This document shows, one piece after another, positions 2,981-47,114 of a stretch of 49,285 bases of DNA (position 1 is the first letter of the stretch; every line of letters starts with the position of its first letter). Below the pieces are notes generated by a model. It was not told the DNA's origin. It did no database searches and saw nothing but the letters and a program-made list of their open reading frames with translations. This stretch comes from Mycobacteriales bacterium. Its GTDB lineage: Bacteria > Actinomycetota > Actinomycetes > JAFAQI01. The position numbers and the translations under genes were made by a program. The stretch spans positions 1-49,285 of the forward strand of contig DATJSI010000086.1 of NCBI GenBank assembly GCA_035504215.1, given 5' to 3'.

Positions 2981-3772
2981 ATGACCCACCGGCGCCACCT
3001 CACCGCTGTTGTGCTCACGTCTGCAGCCCTCTTCACAGCCGCGCTTCCCGCCGCAGCAGCCGCGGGAAGCCCGCGTCAAACGCCCGGCAGTGCATCCGCG
3101 GCGGTGCAGGCCCGTCGACCGGCGGCGCAGCCGGCGAAGTCGAAGCTCGGCACGGTCAAGGGAAAGATCAAGGCGGCGCATCCCCTGAAAAGCGTGGTCG
3201 TCACCCTCTACGTGCCCAAGACGGCGCAGGACGGCAGCAAGGGCTGGGTGGTCAGCGAGGATGTGCTCGCGAGCGGTGGTCACGGTGTCACTCTGAACAA
3301 GAAGACCGGCGACTACTCGTTCAACGTCAAGCCCGGCACCTACCGGGTGGAGTTCTACGGCGAGTACCGCTCAGGCAAGGAGTGGGGCAACGTCGCCTAC
3401 GGCCCGGACAAGCCCGCCGGGCCGCCGTTCGGAAAGTCGATCAAGGTCCGGAAGGGGAAGGCCACCAAGCACATCTCCATCAAGGCCGCCGGCGACTTCG
3501 GCACGGTGCCGCAACCCGATCCGGGCCCGAGCCTCTCGCCGACCGTCCCGACGGCGGGCGGCACGGAGACGGTCGTGCTCGGCACCTGGCCGAAGGGAAC
3601 CGCGTTCACCTACACCTGGCAGCTCGGCAGCAGCGAGAAGTTCCTGAGCCTGAAGCGGACGATCAAGGTGCCTGCCAGCGCGGCCGGTAAGGCGATCAGC
3701 GTCGACATCTACGCGTTCGTGTACGGGAAGAACGGTGCCGCCGTCTCGATCAGCACCATCGTCGCGCACTGA
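2981..3772 (+). CDS. Secreted protein with two beta-sandwich-like domains
   Basis: A 263-residue exported protein of unknown function. Residues 1 to about 28 form a Sec signal peptide (MTHRR, hydrophobic core, AAAAAG cleavage region). After a Pro/Ala/Gln-rich linker there is a Cna-B or carboxypeptidase-regulatory-like segment (about 55-165; G-x-V-x-G-x-I start and GTYRVEFYGEY strand). A PKD/Ig-like segment follows (about 180-263; TFTYTWQLG and YAFVYGKNG). Such domains usually mediate adhesion or structural display. The start is ATG at 2981 with GAGG 5 bases upstream; the upstream extension of the frame is not coding. It is convergent with the permease gene, 16 bases apart. Confidence 0.82.
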   Translation: MTHRRHLTAVVLTSAALFTAALPAAAAAGSPRQTPGSASAAVQARRPAAQPAKSKLGTVKGKIKAAHPLKSVVVTLYVPKTAQDGSKGWVVSEDVLASGGHGVTLNKKTGDYSFNVKPGTYRVEFYGEYRSGKEWGNVAYGPDKPAGPPFGKSIKVRKGKATKHISIKAAGDFGTVPQPDPGPSLSPTVPTAGGTETVVLGTWPKGTAFTYTWQLGSSEKFLSLKRTIKVPASAAGKAISVDIYAFVYGKNGAAVSISTIVAH

Positions 3773-39085: not shown

Positions 39086-40656
39086 GGGCCTCTCGTGCCC
39101 GACGCCGCGGGCACCGGCTCCTCGCCCGAGCGCTGCGGCTGCGCCGACGTGTGTCCCCGTTCGCGCGCGTGCCGTGGATGAGACCTGACCGCGTCGAACA
39201 ACGGGGGCGAGATCCAGGCGGGGTTGTCGCGCTCCTGCCACTCCTCGATGTCCGGTCGGGGCAAGCCGCCGCCGCCGGCGATCAGTGTCGTACCCGCAAC
39301 GACCCCGCCGCCGGCGGCTAGCAGCAGGCACACCCAGACACCCACCTGCAGGCCGGACTGCGGCGAGCTTCCAACGACCGATACGACGAAGACCAGCAAC
39401 GGCGCGGTGACGAATGCCGCCACGCCGCGCAACAGCTCGATCAGGGCGAAGACCCGCTGGATCTGCACGGATCGCAGCGACAAACCGGCGAGGAACAGCG
39501 CGGGTGACACCGAGGCGGCAAGGCCCAGCCCGATCAAGGTGGTCGCTGCATAGGCAAGGTCCTCGGCGCCACCGGCCACGATCACATGGCACACAACTGC
39601 CGACGCGACGAGGAGGACGAGACCGGACAGGGCGAACACAGCGATGCCTCTGGTCGGCAACACCAGGCCGAAGGCACCAGCCACCAGCACTGCAGCACCG
39701 AACTCCGGAGCGAACAGTGCCGCGATATGCAGCGGACTGGTCACCGACTTCAGGTACTGAAGCAGAAGCTCCATGAGGCCGAACCCCGCGGCGCTCGCCA
39801 GCAACGCCGTCAACAAGCCCACCGTCGGCATCGTCGTCGCAAGCAGCCGGACCGGGGTGAGCGGCTGGCGCGCACGGTATTGATGAATGACGAGGATCAC
39901 GAGGGCGAGCACCCCGCCGGCGAGCGGCCCGATCGTTGCCACCGTCGCCGACAACCGGCCCTCAAGCAGTCCGACACCGAAGAAGGCCGCGGCGCACGCG
40001 ACGGCGGCGAGAACCACGGCAACGATGTCCCACGGAGCGCTACGGTCGGCCGGGTCATCGTCCTGGAACGTGAGGAGCGCGAACAGCACCGTGCTCGTGC
40101 TGGAGACGACAACCGCAATGAACAACGGTCTCCACTGCTTGGCGTCGGCAAGCAAAGCCCCGATCGTGGGGCCGAGTGCGACGGCGCCGAAGATGCATAG
40201 GTTCATGAACGACGCCGTCACCGGCACCTTTCGTGCCGGCCAACCGATGACCAGCGGAGGCACCGCTGCGATGAGGAGCAGGCTGGTGCAGAGCCCTTGT
40301 CCGACGAAGCCGGCCGCAAACACCGCGCCGGTGGGCGCCCAGACCGCGAGCACCGAGGCCACCACCAAGAGAACCGCGTAGCGCACGAGCATCCGCCGCG
40401 GCCGCAGATGCTGGGCGAACTGCACAGCGAGCACGGTGCCGAACGCGTACGCAGCATCCGACATCGATAGAACGATCGTGAAGCTCTCTTTGCTCAACCC
40501 CACGCTTGTTGCAAGCACAGTGCTCAACGGCAGCACCGCCGCCGTGAGCATGAGGTACGGCGCAAGCGCAACGACGACGAGCACGACCGCCGCCGGATAG
40601 CTATCGGCCAGCGGGCCGGATCGACGGGTCGCGACCCGATGTCCCGACTCGCTCAC
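39082..40656 (-). CDS. MFS transporter, drug/proton antiporter-like (DHA2)
   Basis: A 524-residue membrane protein with about 14 hydrophobic spans, the DHA2 layout. Motif-A-like RPRRMLVRYA appears after span 2. The polar C-terminal tail is about 60 residues. It likely exports a small molecule using the proton gradient. Its GTG start overlaps the upstream Rieske-fusion stop by 4 bases (GTGA), so it is the last gene of a long minus-strand run and may export that run's product. Confidence 0.9.
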   Translation of the reverse strand: MSESGHRVATRRSGPLADSYPAAVVLVVVALAPYLMLTAAVLPLSTVLATSVGLSKESFTIVLSMSDAAYAFGTVLAVQFAQHLRPRRMLVRYAVLLVVASVLAVWAPTGAVFAAGFVGQGLCTSLLLIAAVPPLVIGWPARKVPVTASFMNLCIFGAVALGPTIGALLADAKQWRPLFIAVVVSSTSTVLFALLTFQDDDPADRSAPWDIVAVVLAAVACAAAFFGVGLLEGRLSATVATIGPLAGGVLALVILVIHQYRARQPLTPVRLLATTMPTVGLLTALLASAAGFGLMELLLQYLKSVTSPLHIAALFAPEFGAAVLVAGAFGLVLPTRGIAVFALSGLVLLVASAVVCHVIVAGGAEDLAYAATTLIGLGLAASVSPALFLAGLSLRSVQIQRVFALIELLRGVAAFVTAPLLVFVVSVVGSSPQSGLQVGVWVCLLLAAGGGVVAGTTLIAGGGGLPRPDIEEWQERDNPAWISPPLFDAVRSHPRHARERGHTSAQPQRSGEEPVPAASGTRGP

Positions 40657-41537
40657 GTGCCTACCGGGTTGCGGCGAAGCGCACGCGCCTCGGTCCGGCG
40701 TACCTCGATCCGTCCGTTGCGCTCTCGGGTCTCGTACACCGGCTGCGGCCGAACCGCGGGACCCTGCTTGACGTCACCGGTGCGCAGGCTGAACCGGCTG
40801 CCGTGCCATGGGCAGATGACGCAGTCGCCGTCGCGTTCACCGTCGCTCAACGGACCGCCACGATGCGTGCACCGGTCGGCGAGCGCTACCACCTCGCCAT
40901 CGATCCGGCTCAGCACCAGCGCAACGCCGTCGGCCACCACCTGGCGCAGCTCATCCGTGACTTCCTCGACCGCGGCCACGTCCTCCCAGTCGGTCGGGCC
41001 GGTCTGGAACGCCGTCGTGTCCACGCCCACGCCGAGACCGAACGACAGGTGACCGCCGAGCCAGCCACCGACGCAGAGCGCCGCGATGCCGATCGCGGCG
41101 CTTGGCCGGCCGCGGTGACCGCGCGAGCGGCTTGCAAACGAGACGAGATAAGCGCCGAGTGCCACGGTGTTAGTCCCCGCGTGCACGACGCCGACCCGGC
41201 GCTCCGCGCCCTCGGTGTCCAGCCAGTCGGACAGGCCGGCGAGTGCACTGGGAACTGCACTGAGCAGGCCGAGGCCGATCAGCCGCCGGGCGGCCGGACG
41301 CGCTTTGCTGCCACCGATGAGGTCGAGCGCGGTCGCGCTCATCAGCGACCCGCCGGTGAGCTGCACGAGGATCGGATGAAGCGGATGACCGATGGCTCGT
41401 CCGGCCAGCGCATCCCGGGCGGCCGGTGATGCCAGCGCGACATCGCCTGCGGTGTGCAGCTTTCCGGCCGCGGGATCAAGCCGGCTCGCGGTTTCGATTC
41501 GCGCGGTTAGCCGCGCCAGTACGTCACTGATCGACAC
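40653..41537 (-). CDS. DUF2231 membrane domain fused to a Rieske [2Fe-2S] domain
   Basis: A 294-residue protein. The N-terminal DUF2231 domain has four spans (about 50-170) and begins with GHPLHPILVQLTGGS (50-64). The C-terminal Rieske domain (about 185-285) has CTH at 223-225 and CPWH at 242-245, so both Cys and both His ligands are present. It looks like a membrane-attached electron carrier for an oxygenase or quinone reaction. Start GTG at 41537. It lies 43 bases after the GT2 gene and overlaps the MFS gene. Confidence 0.92.
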   Translation of the reverse strand: MSISDVLARLTARIETASRLDPAAGKLHTAGDVALASPAARDALAGRAIGHPLHPILVQLTGGSLMSATALDLIGGSKARPAARRLIGLGLLSAVPSALAGLSDWLDTEGAERRVGVVHAGTNTVALGAYLVSFASRSRGHRGRPSAAIGIAALCVGGWLGGHLSFGLGVGVDTTAFQTGPTDWEDVAAVEEVTDELRQVVADGVALVLSRIDGEVVALADRCTHRGGPLSDGERDGDCVICPWHGSRFSLRTGDVKQGPAVRPQPVYETRERNGRIEVRRTEARALRRNPVGT

Positions 41538-41580: not shown

Positions 41581-42261
41581 TCAACCCGCCACCGATCGCA
41601 GGTAGTCGCCGAACCCACCCGAAGCCCGGGGCGAGGTGCGTGCGCTGGTCAGCACGCCGTGGCTGGCGGTCCGGATCACCCGCCGACCGGCAAGCCGACC
41701 GACCAGCGCGACATCCTCACCGAGTGGAAGTGGCGGGAACCCGCCGGCCGCCAGGTACGCCGCCGCAGTGAGTCCGAGGTTCGCGCCATGAATGTGCGGA
41801 TGGTGCTCGACCGGTTGGTAGCCGTCGCGCCATGCACGACGGGCGTCGTCGGGATGGCCGGACCAGTCATCGACATCGACCGTGCCGACCGTCACCTCCC
41901 AGCCATCGGCGGCCAGCTGAAGCTGGGTCGACAGCCAGTCCACGGGCACTGTCGAGTCCGCATCCGTGCATGCCAGCCACAGCTCTTCGGGGCCGTGCTC
42001 CCCGCAGACCGTCAGAGCCGTGGCGGCAGCGGCCGCGCGTGCCGCTCCGACGCTTCCGGCATCGAGTTCGACCGACGTGACCCATGGGCGGGCGCGGACG
42101 ATACCGGCAGTTCCATCCCGGCAGCTGTCGAGCGCGACGACCACATGCACTGGCACGTCGACCACGCGAGCTGACGCGGCAACGGCGTCCAGGCAGGCGG
42201 GGAGCAGCTCCTCCTCGTCGCGAGCCGGAATGATGACCGCAACCGCGGTGATCGACGGCAT
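41581..42261 (-). CDS. GT2-family glycosyltransferase
   Basis: A 226-residue nucleotide-diphospho-sugar glycosyltransferase: IIPARDEEELLPACLDAV (10-27) at the N-terminus, CTDADS as the metal/UDP site near 97-102, HIHGANLGLTAAAYLAAGGF and GEDVALVGRL as acceptor and catalytic regions. There is no membrane segment. Its ATG shares one base with the methyltransferase stop (TGATG). It forms a coupled set with methyltransferase, PIG-L deacetylase and acyl-CoA dehydrogenase-like genes. Confidence 0.9.
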   Translation of the reverse strand: MPSITAVAVIIPARDEEELLPACLDAVAASARVVDVPVHVVVALDSCRDGTAGIVRARPWVTSVELDAGSVGAARAAAAATALTVCGEHGPEELWLACTDADSTVPVDWLSTQLQLAADGWEVTVGTVDVDDWSGHPDDARRAWRDGYQPVEHHPHIHGANLGLTAAAYLAAGGFPPLPLGEDVALVGRLAGRRVIRTASHGVLTSARTSPRASGGFGDYLRSVAG

Positions 42262-42869
42262 CAGACCAGTCCTTCCCGCTCGGCGACGGACGGTGCGCCC
42301 AACGGGGCGAAGACGTCGAGCCGGAAGTCGGTCTCTTCATGAGCGGCCACGAGTTGCAACCCACCGGCGGATCGGAAGGCCGCGTGGACGTCGTCACCGG
42401 TCAGGGGGTAGTCCGGAACTTCATGGCGCCAGTGCACGACGACGAGGTCGCCGTCGGGCTCCAGGCTGCTCGCCGCCCGTTCGACCAGTCCGCCGAGCTC
42501 TGAGTGAGACAGGTAGTAGCCCAGCTCGCTGATAACGAGCAGGTCGAACCGGCCGTCAGGCCACTGGCGCGGCACGGCGAGTTCACGCACGTGGACGTGG
42601 GGCGATGCCGCCACCCGACGGCCGGCGATCTCGACGGCCTGCGGAACGACATCCGTGGCGATCAGCTCGTCGCATCGCGCGGCAAGGGCTTTGCTGAGGA
42701 CCCCGATCGAGCAGCCGGGTTCGAACCCGCGCCGGTACCGTTCGCGCCGCAGGCTGGCCACGGTCAGCGCGTACTTGCGCTGCTCGTACCAGCGACTTGC
42801 CAATGACCACGGGTCGGCGCTGTCGGCGTACATCTGCTCGAAGTAGGAAGGCGCAAGGCTCACGGTCAT
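42261..42869 (-). CDS. Class I SAM-dependent methyltransferase (NodS-like)
   Basis: A 202-residue methyltransferase. The SAM motif FEPGCSIGVLS is at 49-59, then the acidic residue in ATDVVP, and FDLLVISELGYYLS as motif IV. The EPGCSIG form is that of NodS, the N-methyltransferase of rhizobial Nod factor synthesis. Acting after a PIG-L deacetylase, it could methylate a freed amino group of a sugar. That is inference from family and neighbours. The ends overlap both neighbours by 1-4 bases. Confidence 0.9.
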   Translation of the reverse strand: MTVSLAPSYFEQMYADSADPWSLASRWYEQRKYALTVASLRRERYRRGFEPGCSIGVLSKALAARCDELIATDVVPQAVEIAGRRVAASPHVHVRELAVPRQWPDGRFDLLVISELGYYLSHSELGGLVERAASSLEPDGDLVVVHWRHEVPDYPLTGDDVHAAFRSAGGLQLVAAHEETDFRLDVFAPLGAPSVAEREGLV

Positions 42870-43594
42870 TCGACGAACACGACCTCAAACGGCCGGACGA
42901 ACCGCTCGACGACGTGCGGCGGCAGGATCGCGGCATCCGCGGGCTCTGGACCGAGTGCCTCGGTCTGGCTGGTGAAGCAGGCGATCGCCGTCGCTTTCGC
43001 CGCACCATCGATGGCGGGCACGCACCGGGCATGACGCCACGGCACCATCCGATCCGCCGGCTCCGCCCATTGCCACATCCAGATCGGGAATTGCCAGCAC
43101 TCGACGCCCAGCCCGGAAGTGACTGCACCGACCGTCTCGTGGTCGGGATGCCGGTCCTCCCGCCACGTACTGAGCACGAGGTCGCCGGGTGCGACCAGCC
43201 GGCGCAGCGCAGCGGCGAGATTGTCCCGGCACTCGAAGAGACGTCCGTCCGGCAAGCCGAGGTGGTGGCTCTCGACCGGTACGACGTCAAGGGACGCGAG
43301 CGCGCGCTGGGATTCCTGACGCCGGATGACGGCCAGGGCTTCGGGCCGCACGACCGACGAGCCCGGGTGTGACGCCTCGCCGTCCGTGGCCCACACGATG
43401 GCGATGGGATGCTGTCCCGCCAGCCGGTGGAGCAGCCCGCCCACGCCGAGCACCTCGTCGTCCGGGTGGGCGGCGACCACGAGGATCCGTCGGCCCGGCG
43501 CCGGCAGCTGAACCGGCGCGAGAGCGGTAGCCGTCAGCCATGCCCGCCAATGCCGCTCATCCGTGCGCGGACGGTTGACGTCGATCGTCACCAC
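42866..43594 (-). CDS. PIG-L family N-deacetylase
   Basis: A 242-residue zinc deacetylase of the LmbE/MshB/PIG-L fold. AHPDDE is at 42-47 (zinc His43, Asp46; catalytic Asp45) and HPDH at 149-152 provides the second zinc His. Family members remove acetyl from GlcNAc-linked compounds such as GlcNAc-inositol. In some other bacteria PIG-L and a class I methyltransferase occur fused in one chain, matching the adjacent gene here. It overlaps the acyl-CoA dehydrogenase-like gene by 7 bases and the methyltransferase gene by 4. Confidence 0.93.
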   Translation of the reverse strand: MVTIDVNRPRTDERHWRAWLTATALAPVQLPAPGRRILVVAAHPDDEVLGVGGLLHRLAGQHPIAIVWATDGEASHPGSSVVRPEALAVIRRQESQRALASLDVVPVESHHLGLPDGRLFECRDNLAAALRRLVAPGDLVLSTWREDRHPDHETVGAVTSGLGVECWQFPIWMWQWAEPADRMVPWRHARCVPAIDGAAKATAIACFTSQTEALGPEPADAAILPPHVVERFVRPFEVVFVE

Positions 43595-44646
43595 TCGGGA
43601 CCTCGTGCGGCCAGTTGCCGGCCGAGCTCGGCGAGGTCGCGGTCCGCGTGGCTTTGCCGGAGGTAGAGCTGCAGGTCGGCGACCTTCCGCCAGTGCCGGT
43701 CGTCCGTGACGAATGGCGACGGACCGAGCGCGCGGCCCACGCGGTCGATCACCTCGGTGGCCGAAGCCTCGACGACCGCGCGGGTGCTGCGTGCGCGCGC
43801 CTCGCCAAGCTCCGCACGGTCATCGGGATCGGCGTCGATTGCCCTTGCCGTTTCGAGCAGGACGGCGCGTCCCGCGGTCAGGGCGGCGTCGACCGCACCC
43901 AGATGGGCCAGGTCGATGTCGGGCAGGTCACGACGCCGGCTCGAGTCGAGCAGCCGCCGACCCACCGCCACCGCACCGCCGTACCAGACCGCCGCGACGC
44001 CGGCGGCGCCGTGCCAGAAGCCGGGGCGAGTCAGGTAGCTGCCGACCGCGCCGATCGGCACCGCGACCGCGCCGTGGAACTCGACCGCCCGAGTGTCCGC
44101 GCCGGCCAGCGTGGGCGAGGGCCACCGCGCACTATCCGTACGGACCGCGGGCTGATCGAGCTCGACCGCGAAAGGACGCGAGCCTTCCCCGTCGTCGGCC
44201 GTCACCAAGGCGTGGGTGCTGCCGGTCGCGCCGCTGCACCAACCCTTGCGGCCCTCGAGGGACCAGCGGCCGAGGGTGTCGCGACCGGCATGCAGCCGCT
44301 GCCGCGGGTCCTCGGCCGCCCACACCCCCCACAACGATCGCGCCGGCCGCGGGTAGTCGGGCGCGAGCTCCGCCAAGATCGCCACCGCGTCCGCGTGCGC
44401 CTCCGCAAGCCGGCCGAGGTTGAGGTCGATCTCGCCGATCCCGGTGAGCGCCGCGAACCGCGCCGTCGTCCGGCCGGACCCTGGCAAGGGGAGCCGGTCG
44501 AGCACGTCGGCGGCCAGGTCAGTGAGCACTTCGCTCACCACCTCGGGCCGGGCGAACTCGGCGCCGTCGATGCTGCGGGCACCGTGATAGCGGTCCCACC
44601 AGGCCTCCACCGCGCCGCGCGACCCGACGATCGGTGCCGTCGTCAC
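43588..44646 (-). CDS. Acyl-CoA dehydrogenase-like protein
   Basis: A 352-residue protein with the acyl-CoA dehydrogenase fold. A helical N-terminus is followed by a beta-domain near 120-220 (WSLEGRKGWCSGATGSTHALVTA, resembling the G-x-K-x-x-x-S/T-G FAD region) and a helical C-terminus. The usual catalytic Glu and the C-terminal FAD-dimer motif are not clearly recognisable, so it may be a divergent flavoenzyme. The GTG start at 44646 follows the F420 oxidoreductase stop by 25 bases. It is always seen here as part of the coupled gene set. Confidence 0.8.
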   Translation of the reverse strand: MTTAPIVGSRGAVEAWWDRYHGARSIDGAEFARPEVVSEVLTDLAADVLDRLPLPGSGRTTARFAALTGIGEIDLNLGRLAEAHADAVAILAELAPDYPRPARSLWGVWAAEDPRQRLHAGRDTLGRWSLEGRKGWCSGATGSTHALVTADDGEGSRPFAVELDQPAVRTDSARWPSPTLAGADTRAVEFHGAVAVPIGAVGSYLTRPGFWHGAAGVAAVWYGGAVAVGRRLLDSSRRRDLPDIDLAHLGAVDAALTAGRAVLLETARAIDADPDDRAELGEARARSTRAVVEASATEVIDRVGRALGPSPFVTDDRHWRKVADLQLYLRQSHADRDLAELGRQLAARGPEW

Positions 44647-44671
44647 GTCGGCTGTGTCACCTTTCAGCAAC

Positions 44672-45631
44672 TCAGGCTCGGCCGCGCAGCGACGGAAGCA
44701 CTTCTTCGGCGAGGAACTTGATACCGCCCTCCTGGTCGGGACCGATCTGGGAGACATAGACCTCGTCGAAACCGGCGTCGACGTAGGAGCGAATCAGCTT
44801 CGCGGCCGGCTCGGGATCGGGCCCGCACGGGAAGGTCTCCGCGACCTGGTCAGGCGTGACGGCCTCGCCGAGCGTCTCGAACTCGGTCCACGACAGCAGA
44901 TCCTGGGCGCTCTGCCCACCAACGGCCTCGTGGCCCCAGAGCCGGTACGCCGTCTTCGCCGCGTCATCCGCCGAGCCGGCCCAGCAGATCTTGAGACCGC
45001 CCTGGACCGAGCCCCTTCCGCCGGCGTCCCGGTATGCCTTGACCAGATCGCCGTCGGGCTGCACGTTGATATAGCCATCACCAACCGCTGCGGCGAGCTT
45101 TGCCGACTCCGGCCCGAAGCCAGATACGAGGATCGACGGCAGCTGCTCCGGAAGCGAGAAAACCCGTGCCGCGTCGACGACGTAGTGCGCGCCGCGATGG
45201 GTGAGGGTCTCGCCGGACCAGAGCCGACGAACGATCTCGATCGCCTCGGCCAGTCGCTCGCGTCGAATCTCTGCCGGCGGCCACAAGCCGCCGAGAATGT
45301 GCTCGTTCAGCCGCTCTCCGGTGCCGACCCCAAGCGTGAATCGGCCCGGCGCGACGGAGGCGACGGTCGCAGCAGCCTGCGCGATGACAGCGGGATGGAT
45401 GCGGTCGGTCGGGCAGGTCACGGCCGTCGTCATCCTCAGCTCGGTCTGCGCCGCGATCGCTCCGAGGATCGTCCAGACGAAAGCGCTTTCGCCCTGCTCC
45501 CTCGTCCACGGGTGGTAGTGATCGGAGATCCAGATCCGATCGAACCCTGCGTCCTCCGCAAGGTGCGCGGCGCGGACCAGCTCCGCGGGCGAGAGCTCTT
45601 CTGCGGAAAGGAAGTAGCCGAACTCAGTCAT
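44672..45631 (-). CDS. F420-dependent LLM-class oxidoreductase
   Basis: A 319-residue luciferase-like TIM-barrel enzyme of the F420-dependent glucose-6-phosphate-dehydrogenase-like group (begins FGYFLSAEE; DHYHPW; VGTGERLNEHILG; SGFGPESAKLAAAVGDGYI). It uses coenzyme F420 for hydride transfer; the substrate is unknown. AGGAGGT abuts the ATG directly, an unusually short spacing, and a GGGTAC element (45641-45646, minus) lies 9 bases before it, so leaderless translation is possible. It may head the acyl-CoA dehydrogenase/PIG-L operon. Confidence 0.9.
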   Translation of the reverse strand: MTEFGYFLSAEELSPAELVRAAHLAEDAGFDRIWISDHYHPWTREQGESAFVWTILGAIAAQTELRMTTAVTCPTDRIHPAVIAQAAATVASVAPGRFTLGVGTGERLNEHILGGLWPPAEIRRERLAEAIEIVRRLWSGETLTHRGAHYVVDAARVFSLPEQLPSILVSGFGPESAKLAAAVGDGYINVQPDGDLVKAYRDAGGRGSVQGGLKICWAGSADDAAKTAYRLWGHEAVGGQSAQDLLSWTEFETLGEAVTPDQVAETFPCGPDPEPAAKLIRSYVDAGFDEVYVSQIGPDQEGGIKFLAEEVLPSLRGRA

Positions 45632-45664: not shown

Positions 45665-46381
45665 TCATGGCAGATCGGCGAGCAGTTCGCGCAGCCGTCG
45701 AGCGTCTTCGACCGCGGCACCGCCCGGGTCGTTGTTGGCGTAGGCAAAGCCATCGTGGGCCGACAGCCGGCGAGCCCATCGACGCAACGTCGACGTGTCG
45801 TACGACCACGAGTCACGGCCATGATGCAGCCGCAGGTAACGCCAGCTCGCGGTCTCCCACAGCGGCCCCGTCGCACGCCCGTCCCGGTCGGCCCATACCA
45901 GCGGCGCGTCGAACGCGGCCAGGACGTCGCGCACGTCGGCGTGAAACCAGGACGGGTCGCGGAGCTCGACCGCGACCGGGACGTGCCCGTTCAAGCAGGC
46001 GAGGGTCTGCTCGAGGCGCGGGCAGTCGACCGGGAAGGCGGGCGGTAGCTGGAGCAGCACCGGGCCGAGCAAGGCGCGCTCGCGCAAGGGCTCGATCCGG
46101 TCGAGTAACCGCTGCACCGGCTCCTCGGGATCGCGCAGTCGTTTGATGTGGGTGAGGTAGCGGCTGGCCTTGACGGTCATGAGGAAGCCGTCGGGCAGCG
46201 TGTCCGCCCAGCGTTGCACCGCCTCCCGCTTGGGCAGCCGGTAGAACGTCGCATTGACCTCAACGCTGTCGAAGGCTGCGGCGTACCAGCTCAGCCATTC
46301 GCGTTGCGGCAACCGATCGGGGTAGAACAGGCCGCGCCAGTCTGCGTACTGCCATCCGCTCGTTCCGACGCGGATCGTCAT
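45665..46381 (-). CDS. DUF72 domain protein
   Basis: A 238-residue TIM-barrel protein of the DUF72 (YecE-like) family: VGTSGWQYADWRG at the start, VEVNATFYRLP (about 41-51), F-x-M-T-V-K-A-S-R-x-x-T-H, ELRDPSW near 139-145 and YANNDPGG near the end. Function is unknown; relatives are tied loosely to iron-sulfur or nucleic-acid metabolism. It starts 27 bases after the ferritin-like gene stop on the same strand. Confidence 0.93.
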   Translation of the reverse strand: MTIRVGTSGWQYADWRGLFYPDRLPQREWLSWYAAAFDSVEVNATFYRLPKREAVQRWADTLPDGFLMTVKASRYLTHIKRLRDPEEPVQRLLDRIEPLRERALLGPVLLQLPPAFPVDCPRLEQTLACLNGHVPVAVELRDPSWFHADVRDVLAAFDAPLVWADRDGRATGPLWETASWRYLRLHHGRDSWSYDTSTLRRWARRLSAHDGFAYANNDPGGAAVEDARRLRELLADLP

Positions 46382-46408: not shown

Positions 46409-46939
46409 TCAGATGCCGAGCAGGTCGACCAGATCGTCGGCGTGCTCCTCCTCCTCTTCGAGGATTCCCTCCATCAGCCGCCGAGTGGTCGGATCGCCGT
46501 CACCGAGCCAGCGGATGATCTCTCGGTAGCTGGCGATCACGATCCGCTCCGCGACGAGGTTCTCCTCCAGCATGGCCTTGAGGTCGTTGCCCGCCGCCGT
46601 CGCGTAGTCGGTATGCGATCGCTTCAGCGCGTCCGGGCTGAAGTCGGGGTCGCCGCCGAGCTGGCTGATCCGCTCGGCCGCTCTCTCGGCGTGCGCTCGC
46701 TCCTCTTGCGCATGTTCGCTGAACTCGGCCGCCACTTGGGCCCGATCGATCCCTGACGCGACGATCGCGTGCTGCGTGTAACGCAGGTAACAGACGATCT
46801 CGGTGGCGACCACCTGGTTGAGTACGTCGATCACGGCATCGACATCGGCGCCGAAGTCCTTCGTGACGGGACCGCGATCGATCTGCTCACGAGCTTGCTC
46901 GCGGATTCGCGTGACATCGAGCGCGAACTGGTTCGGCAC
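46409..46939 (-). CDS. Ferritin-like / bacterioferritin-type protein
   Basis: A 176-residue four-helix di-iron protein. Ferroxidase-type residues: Glu in VVATEIVCYLRYTQH, E-x-x-H in EERAHAERA, Glu in LEENLVAER, and E-x-x-H in EEEEHADDL. It probably stores iron and removes peroxide. I start it at GTG 46939, 9 bases after GAAGGA; the upstream GTG 46957 would put that ribosome site inside the gene. A SigB-like promoter match lies 40-65 bases upstream. Confidence 0.9.
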   Translation of the reverse strand: MPNQFALDVTRIREQAREQIDRGPVTKDFGADVDAVIDVLNQVVATEIVCYLRYTQHAIVASGIDRAQVAAEFSEHAQEERAHAERAAERISQLGGDPDFSPDALKRSHTDYATAAGNDLKAMLEENLVAERIVIASYREIIRWLGDGDPTTRRLMEGILEEEEEHADDLVDLLGI

Positions 46940-46978
46940 GTTAAAGCTTCCTTCCACGGGGATGACTACGTCTGGCGG

Positions 46979-47004
46979 GTACCCGCGACCACGGTGACGC
47001 ACAC
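46979..47004 (-). promoter_or_regulatory. SigB/SigF-like promoter match before the ferritin-like gene
   Basis: On the minus strand, GTGT (47004-47001), 16 bases, then GGGTAC (46984-46979). It has identical hexamers and spacing to the match before the small hydrophobic protein at 37620. The -10 sits in a 12-base palindrome, GCGGGTACCCGC. Confidence 0.5.
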
Positions 47005-47027
47005 CTGGCCGCATGCCGCCGGCAGTG

Positions 47028-47058
47028 CCGAGTAGGCAATGAGCCAGCCGAGTAGGCA
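47028..47058. repeat. Direct repeat CCGAGTAGGCA in the divergent control region
   Basis: CCGAGTAGGCA occurs at 47028-47038 and 47048-47058, 20 bases (about two helix turns) apart, with a third partial copy GGGTAGGC at 47070. It lies between the ferritin-like and histone-like genes and could be a regulator site. Confidence 0.35.
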
Positions 47059-47114
47059 GCGAGGCGGGCGGGTAGGCCATTGACACTGACGGCTCCACTT
47101 CTCAGGAGGACCAG

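Follow-up and report, generated by a model that had tools for sequence, protein, structure and literature searches.

Four tightly coupled genes in a contig from a Mycobacteriales bacterium are not an isolated arrangement: an acyl-CoA dehydrogenase (ACAD)-like flavoprotein, a PIG-L family deacetylase, a NodS-like methyltransferase and a family 2 glycosyltransferase (GT2) form a cassette that is supported as one functional unit and that recurs in distant bacterial phyla. 

The contig is DATJSI010000086.1 of assembly GCA_035504215.1, and the window is the whole stretch of 49,285 nucleotides that was analysed. We consider it an even bet that the cassette specifies a cytosolic pathway to a stress-protective glycoside of the N-methylglucosaminyl type. 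All of its genes lie on the minus strand, beginning with the ACAD-like gene (43588..44646; 352 aa, GTG start) and continuing with those for a zinc-dependent PIG-L N-deacetylase (42866..43594; 242 aa), a NodS-like class I SAM methyltransferase (42261..42869; 202 aa) and a soluble GT-A family 2 glycosyltransferase (41581..42261; 226 aa). A gene for an F420 oxidoreductase (LLM; 45631-44672, minus strand, Bac_luciferase/TIGR03557) precedes them with a 25-base gap, and the cassette genes then overlap by 7 bases (ACAD-like/PIG-L), 4 bases (PIG-L/NodS-like, ATGA) and 1 base (NodS-like/GT2, TGATG). The coordinates and junctions originally given for these five frames were all exact on re-reading.

The proposal that the coupled genes belong together withstood a search of gene neighbourhoods. 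A genome collection yielded at least 575 relatives, of which the 80 best by methyltransferase match, a non-random sample, were examined. At 76 of these loci the complete set lies on a single strand within 5.5 kb, and at 15 of the 80 the PIG-L and methyltransferase genes are fused into a single reading frame. A 4-base overlap joins neighbouring cassette genes at most loci, and GT2 is shifted to the 5′ end in 14 of the 76 complete loci (Rhodococcus, Gordonia, Mycobacterium and others). When the window's genome and 60 relatives were compared, a close methyltransferase was found in 8 genomes, including the window's own, and nearly all of these have the ACAD-like, PIG-L and GT2 genes adjoining it; the exceptions are one contig that ends early and a few genes that are displaced or missing. 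An independent draw of 296 genomes from the same phylum contained the methyltransferase in 33, the ACAD-like protein in 31 and both in 29 (hypergeometric p ~1e-33, a value that ignores phylogeny). The cassette is also present in Proteobacteria, Deinococcus and cyanobacteria, is often plasmid-borne, and is rare in the Pseudomonas class (7/369 genomes). Its carriers, among them Rubrobacter, Nostoc, Pseudomonas syringae and hosts of Acinetobacter plasmids, include many soil, plant and desiccation-tolerant bacteria. That this gene set, usually with 4-base overlaps, recurs in dozens of genera is far beyond chance. No flanking gene is constant or dominant among the actinobacterial copies, that of the window included.

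The five-gene operon originally proposed stands for its four coupled genes but not for the F420 oxidoreductase. Very few loci have LLM next to or close to the cassette, and the gene is present in 11 of 11 genomes checked from the same family, of which a single one (G004) has the cassette, on a contig separate from that of LLM. Few adjacent loci, family-wide presence and the separate contig together indicate that LLM is a chance neighbour of the window's cassette, and we rejected it as a member. Other neighbours were noted. Just upstream of LLM are a DUF72 gene and a Dps/ferritin-like gene (45665-46381 and 46409-47098), and genes of one or the other kind occur near some distant cassettes (L117, L184, L200, L041, L085 and L181). 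Downstream of the cassette is a DUF2231-Rieske fusion gene (40653-41537), which also adjoins actinobacterial cassettes at L029, L049, L059, L085 and L088; it is possibly a redox partner, or else a coincidence.

The window's PIG-L protein scores 87.1 bits against the Pfam family (gathering score 28.2), its zinc motifs HPDDE and H-x-DH (HPDH) are unchanged across 33 relatives, and among proteins of solved structure it is closest to diacetylchitobiose deacetylases. At 15 loci of a Rubrobacter type (L160-L164, L166, L168, L169, L171, L173-L176, L178 and L179) there is no PIG-L gene, and a deacetylase of family PF01522 (CE4, NodB-type) is encoded just upstream of the ACAD-like gene. We refer these loci to Rubrobacteraceae on the basis of one named member, Rubrobacter indicoceani, the rest being assigned by a shared family (f46) or by layout. 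The exchange of PIG-L for an unrelated enzyme of like activity is the strongest evidence that the step conserved across cassettes is de-N-acetylation, as it seems to be. These loci also carry a Pyr_redox_2 flavoprotein gene between the methyltransferase and GT2 genes, and its product is a possible electron donor.

The methyltransferase belongs to the NodS family (Pfam NodS, 63 bits) but is not a true NodS, scoring 68.7 bits against an NCBIfam NodS cut-off of 300. Phylogenetic analysis places true NodS on a separate long branch outside the cassette enzymes, in a tree whose deep nodes have low support. From this family membership and the deacetylase partner we infer that the enzyme is a predicted sugar N-methyltransferase, acting on an amino sugar. 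It matches PDB entry 4isc, named only 'Methyltransferase', with an E value of 1e-46; because 4isc is 63-90% identical to the cassette copies of Pseudomonas, the structure of a cassette member has already been solved. The GT2 protein matches Pfam Glycos_transf_2 and, judged by its motifs and modelled fold, is a GT-A glycosyltransferase. It has invariant DxD (D100, D102) and ED (E182, D183) motifs, and its model (pLDDT 96.4), that of a soluble protein, matches WrtF, TarS/TarP and the chondroitin and heparosan synthases with Z scores of 17-21.

The ACAD-like protein matches Pfam Acyl-CoA_dh_M weakly, under the Pfam cut-off. Its AlphaFold model (mean pLDDT 94.6) has the ACAD/DszC fold with Z ~33, true ACADs and the DszC group scoring alike. 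A profile search of the PDB returned DszC and TdsC first, followed by KijD3 and nitrososynthase among many ACADs. KijD3 and nitrososynthase are ACAD-fold N-oxygenases whose substrates are amino sugars of antibiotic biosynthesis. Identity to enzymes of the DszC/KijD3 type is about 15-17% over the fold, and a G-x-K-x-x-CSGA stretch is common to the cassette protein and DszC. When aligned with ACADs from its own genome, the cassette protein has LRQ at the EGT position and WH at the IVD-type position, with no Glu, and on the missing catalytic Glu we rejected an ordinary acyl-CoA dehydrogenase. We give about even odds to a flavin monooxygenase-like enzyme, as these sequence comparisons suggest. In Deinococcus, the ACAD-like copies (L128:4898-7261 and L036:2199-4538) are extended at the N terminus by a domain of about 400 aa, which has no confident family match in Pfam and reads like a putative glycoside-hydrolase-like barrel. 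Such a fusion would fit a glycoside substrate rather than an acyl-CoA.

The logic of the cassette resembles that of Nod factor synthesis (GT2 NodC, CE4 NodB and NodS), in that a GT2, a GlcNAc de-N-acetylation and a NodS-family N-methylation are combined, and the Rubrobacteraceae cassettes even use a NodB-type deacetylase. However, the cassette lacks NodA and the membrane protein NodC, and it adds an ACAD-fold flavoprotein. No acyltransferase or chitin synthase of the nodA/nodC type was found in the cassette or its flanks, and real nod loci read differently. Together with the sub-threshold score and the separate branch of true NodS, this set aside Nod factor as the product. In mycothiol and bacillithiol synthesis, a glycosyltransferase makes a GlcNAc glycoside, which a PIG-L enzyme (MshB, BshB) then processes. 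The cassette differs in having no cysteine ligase; its PIG-L scores 48 bits where the BshB1 cut-off is 182, with no match to MshB at an E value of 0.001. Moreover, the genome has its own MshB on a separate contig (388 bits), which shows that the cassette is not a mycothiol pathway. A match to a known pathway such as mycothiol, which had been named as grounds for abandoning the idea, was therefore not obtained. The N-methylated amino-sugar conjugate of the original prediction is consistent with the deacetylase, NodS-like enzyme and GT2, and is strengthened by the CE4 exchange. Its two redox roles were not supported: the F420 oxidoreductase is found in genomes nearly all of which lack the cassette, and the second enzyme, proposed to act on an acyl or aglycone part, looks monooxygenase-like and lacks the Glu of an acyl-CoA dehydrogenase.

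A connection that the original prediction missed is with trehalose, alpha-glucan and stress genes. In Pseudomonas, malQ, treY and glgX lie upstream of the cassette in 9 of 9 loci, and the cassette follows immediately after glgX in trehalose/alpha-glucan operons (treY/Z-glgX); in P. syringae the stop codon of glgX and the start codon of the ACAD-like gene share an ATGA. A Pseudomonas operon glgA-treZ-malQ-treY-3129-glgX is described in PMC8982409, and the cassette, judged by position, would follow PSPTO3130 in this operon. PMC8982409 and PMC8084333 cover glgA to glgX, and the four downstream enzymes are not mentioned in the searched portions of their text. Two Comamonas species have the order otsA-ACAD-PIGL-MT-GT2-otsB, and otsBA adjoins the cassette on Acinetobacter plasmids, some of which also carry catalase. 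This trehalose link was seen in proteobacterial loci only, and TreY of the window's genome is encoded on another contig. Catalase genes lie near the cassette at 10 loci in several phyla, and also in N. resinovorum, and further neighbours include Dps/ferritin-like, DUF72, Ku/LigD, PRC-barrel and PA2169-type genes. The neighbour counts given here are raw and were not set against matched random windows.

Upstream sequences add to this picture. A stress-sigma-like motif, GTTT-N13-17-GGG[TC]A, precedes 16 of 76 actinobacterial cassettes versus 4 of 389 control genes, with 6 of the 16 from Streptomyces and with controls drawn from the same loci and in some cases operon-internal. The motif is absent upstream of the window's cassette, and an EcfG-type motif was not found in the alphaproteobacterial copies, save for one relaxed match in Sulfitobacter. 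A general-stress paper on Sphingomonas melonis Fr1 lists an EcfG-dependent glycosyltransferase cluster, 3505-3509, which may or may not be the cassette. The context as a whole points to a role in water and oxidative stress. Two further features of the surroundings were recorded: UDP-galactopyranose mutase genes adjoin or lie near the cassette in two unrelated groups, Gordonia (L046, L054, L068 and L113) and Deinococcus (L040 and L128), and the cassette operons of sphingomonads contain extra glycosyltransferase genes, so the product may be larger in those organisms.

The substrate, the order of steps and the product are what we infer from these observations. GT2 would first add an N-acetylhexosamine to a soluble acceptor, and PIG-L, or the CE4 deacetylase in Rubrobacteraceae, would then strip the acetyl group. 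The NodS-like enzyme would N-methylate the freed amine, and oxidation of the resulting compound by the ACAD-fold flavoprotein would follow, most likely as flavin-dependent monooxygenation of the amine or the sugar. The insertions between otsA and otsB and after glgX make trehalose or a short alpha-glucan the acceptor to consider first in Proteobacteria, a possibility to which we assign about one chance in five. It is possible, though we lean against it, that the cassettes of all these phyla make an undescribed class of N-methylaminosugar solutes, for example N-methylglucosaminyl-trehalose or -glucan, that confer tolerance of drying and osmotic stress.

Other products can be envisaged. Instead of making a soluble solute, the cassette might decorate a glycan or glycolipid of the cell envelope or one destined for export, a modification of the cell surface with amino sugar, as could be supposed from the additional glycosyltransferase genes of sphingomonads, the UDP-galactopyranose mutase beside Deinococcus and Gordonia copies and the likeness of the GT2 fold to wall and polysaccharide glycosyltransferases. 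Nevertheless, the four window proteins are of soluble size and the conserved set includes no transporter, flippase or membrane glycosyltransferase, and we regard an envelope product as rather doubtful. A secreted small molecule, such as a signal, a siderophore or an aminoglycoside-like compound, would make the stress neighbours incidental. The presence of the whole set in widely separated phyla without a shared exporter, and its repeated siting in trehalose operons and by catalases, render this unlikely, even though KijD3 and nitrososynthase serve antibiotic pathways and the cassette has the patchy spread (33/296 in the phylum, 7/369 in the Pseudomonas class) and plasmid carriage that a secreted product might show.

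Least probable, in our estimation, is a repair role during stress, in which the cassette would recycle or detoxify modified sugars such as damaged derivatives of trehalose or glucan. A SAM-dependent methyltransferase and a glycosyltransferase suit synthesis better than breakdown, although the stress context and the glycoside-hydrolase-like fusion in Deinococcus would be compatible with repair, and a monooxygenase-like flavoprotein could demethylate or oxidize such sugars.

The component families of the cassette are known, but their combination, spread and stress setting are undescribed as far as the searched literature goes: searches with PIG-L plus NodS or other enzyme names, and broader ones, returned no description of the cassette from a literature in which most subscription papers were beyond search. 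The cassette supplies a context for the orphan structure 4isc, and the widespread annotation of its flavoprotein as an 'acyl-CoA dehydrogenase' is probably wrong. It also extends the NodB-NodS logic beyond symbiosis. Trehalose and related solutes play a central part in how bacteria endure drying. If the cassette does direct synthesis of a stress-protective N-methylglucosaminyl-type glycoside, a whole class of protective sugar would have been overlooked.
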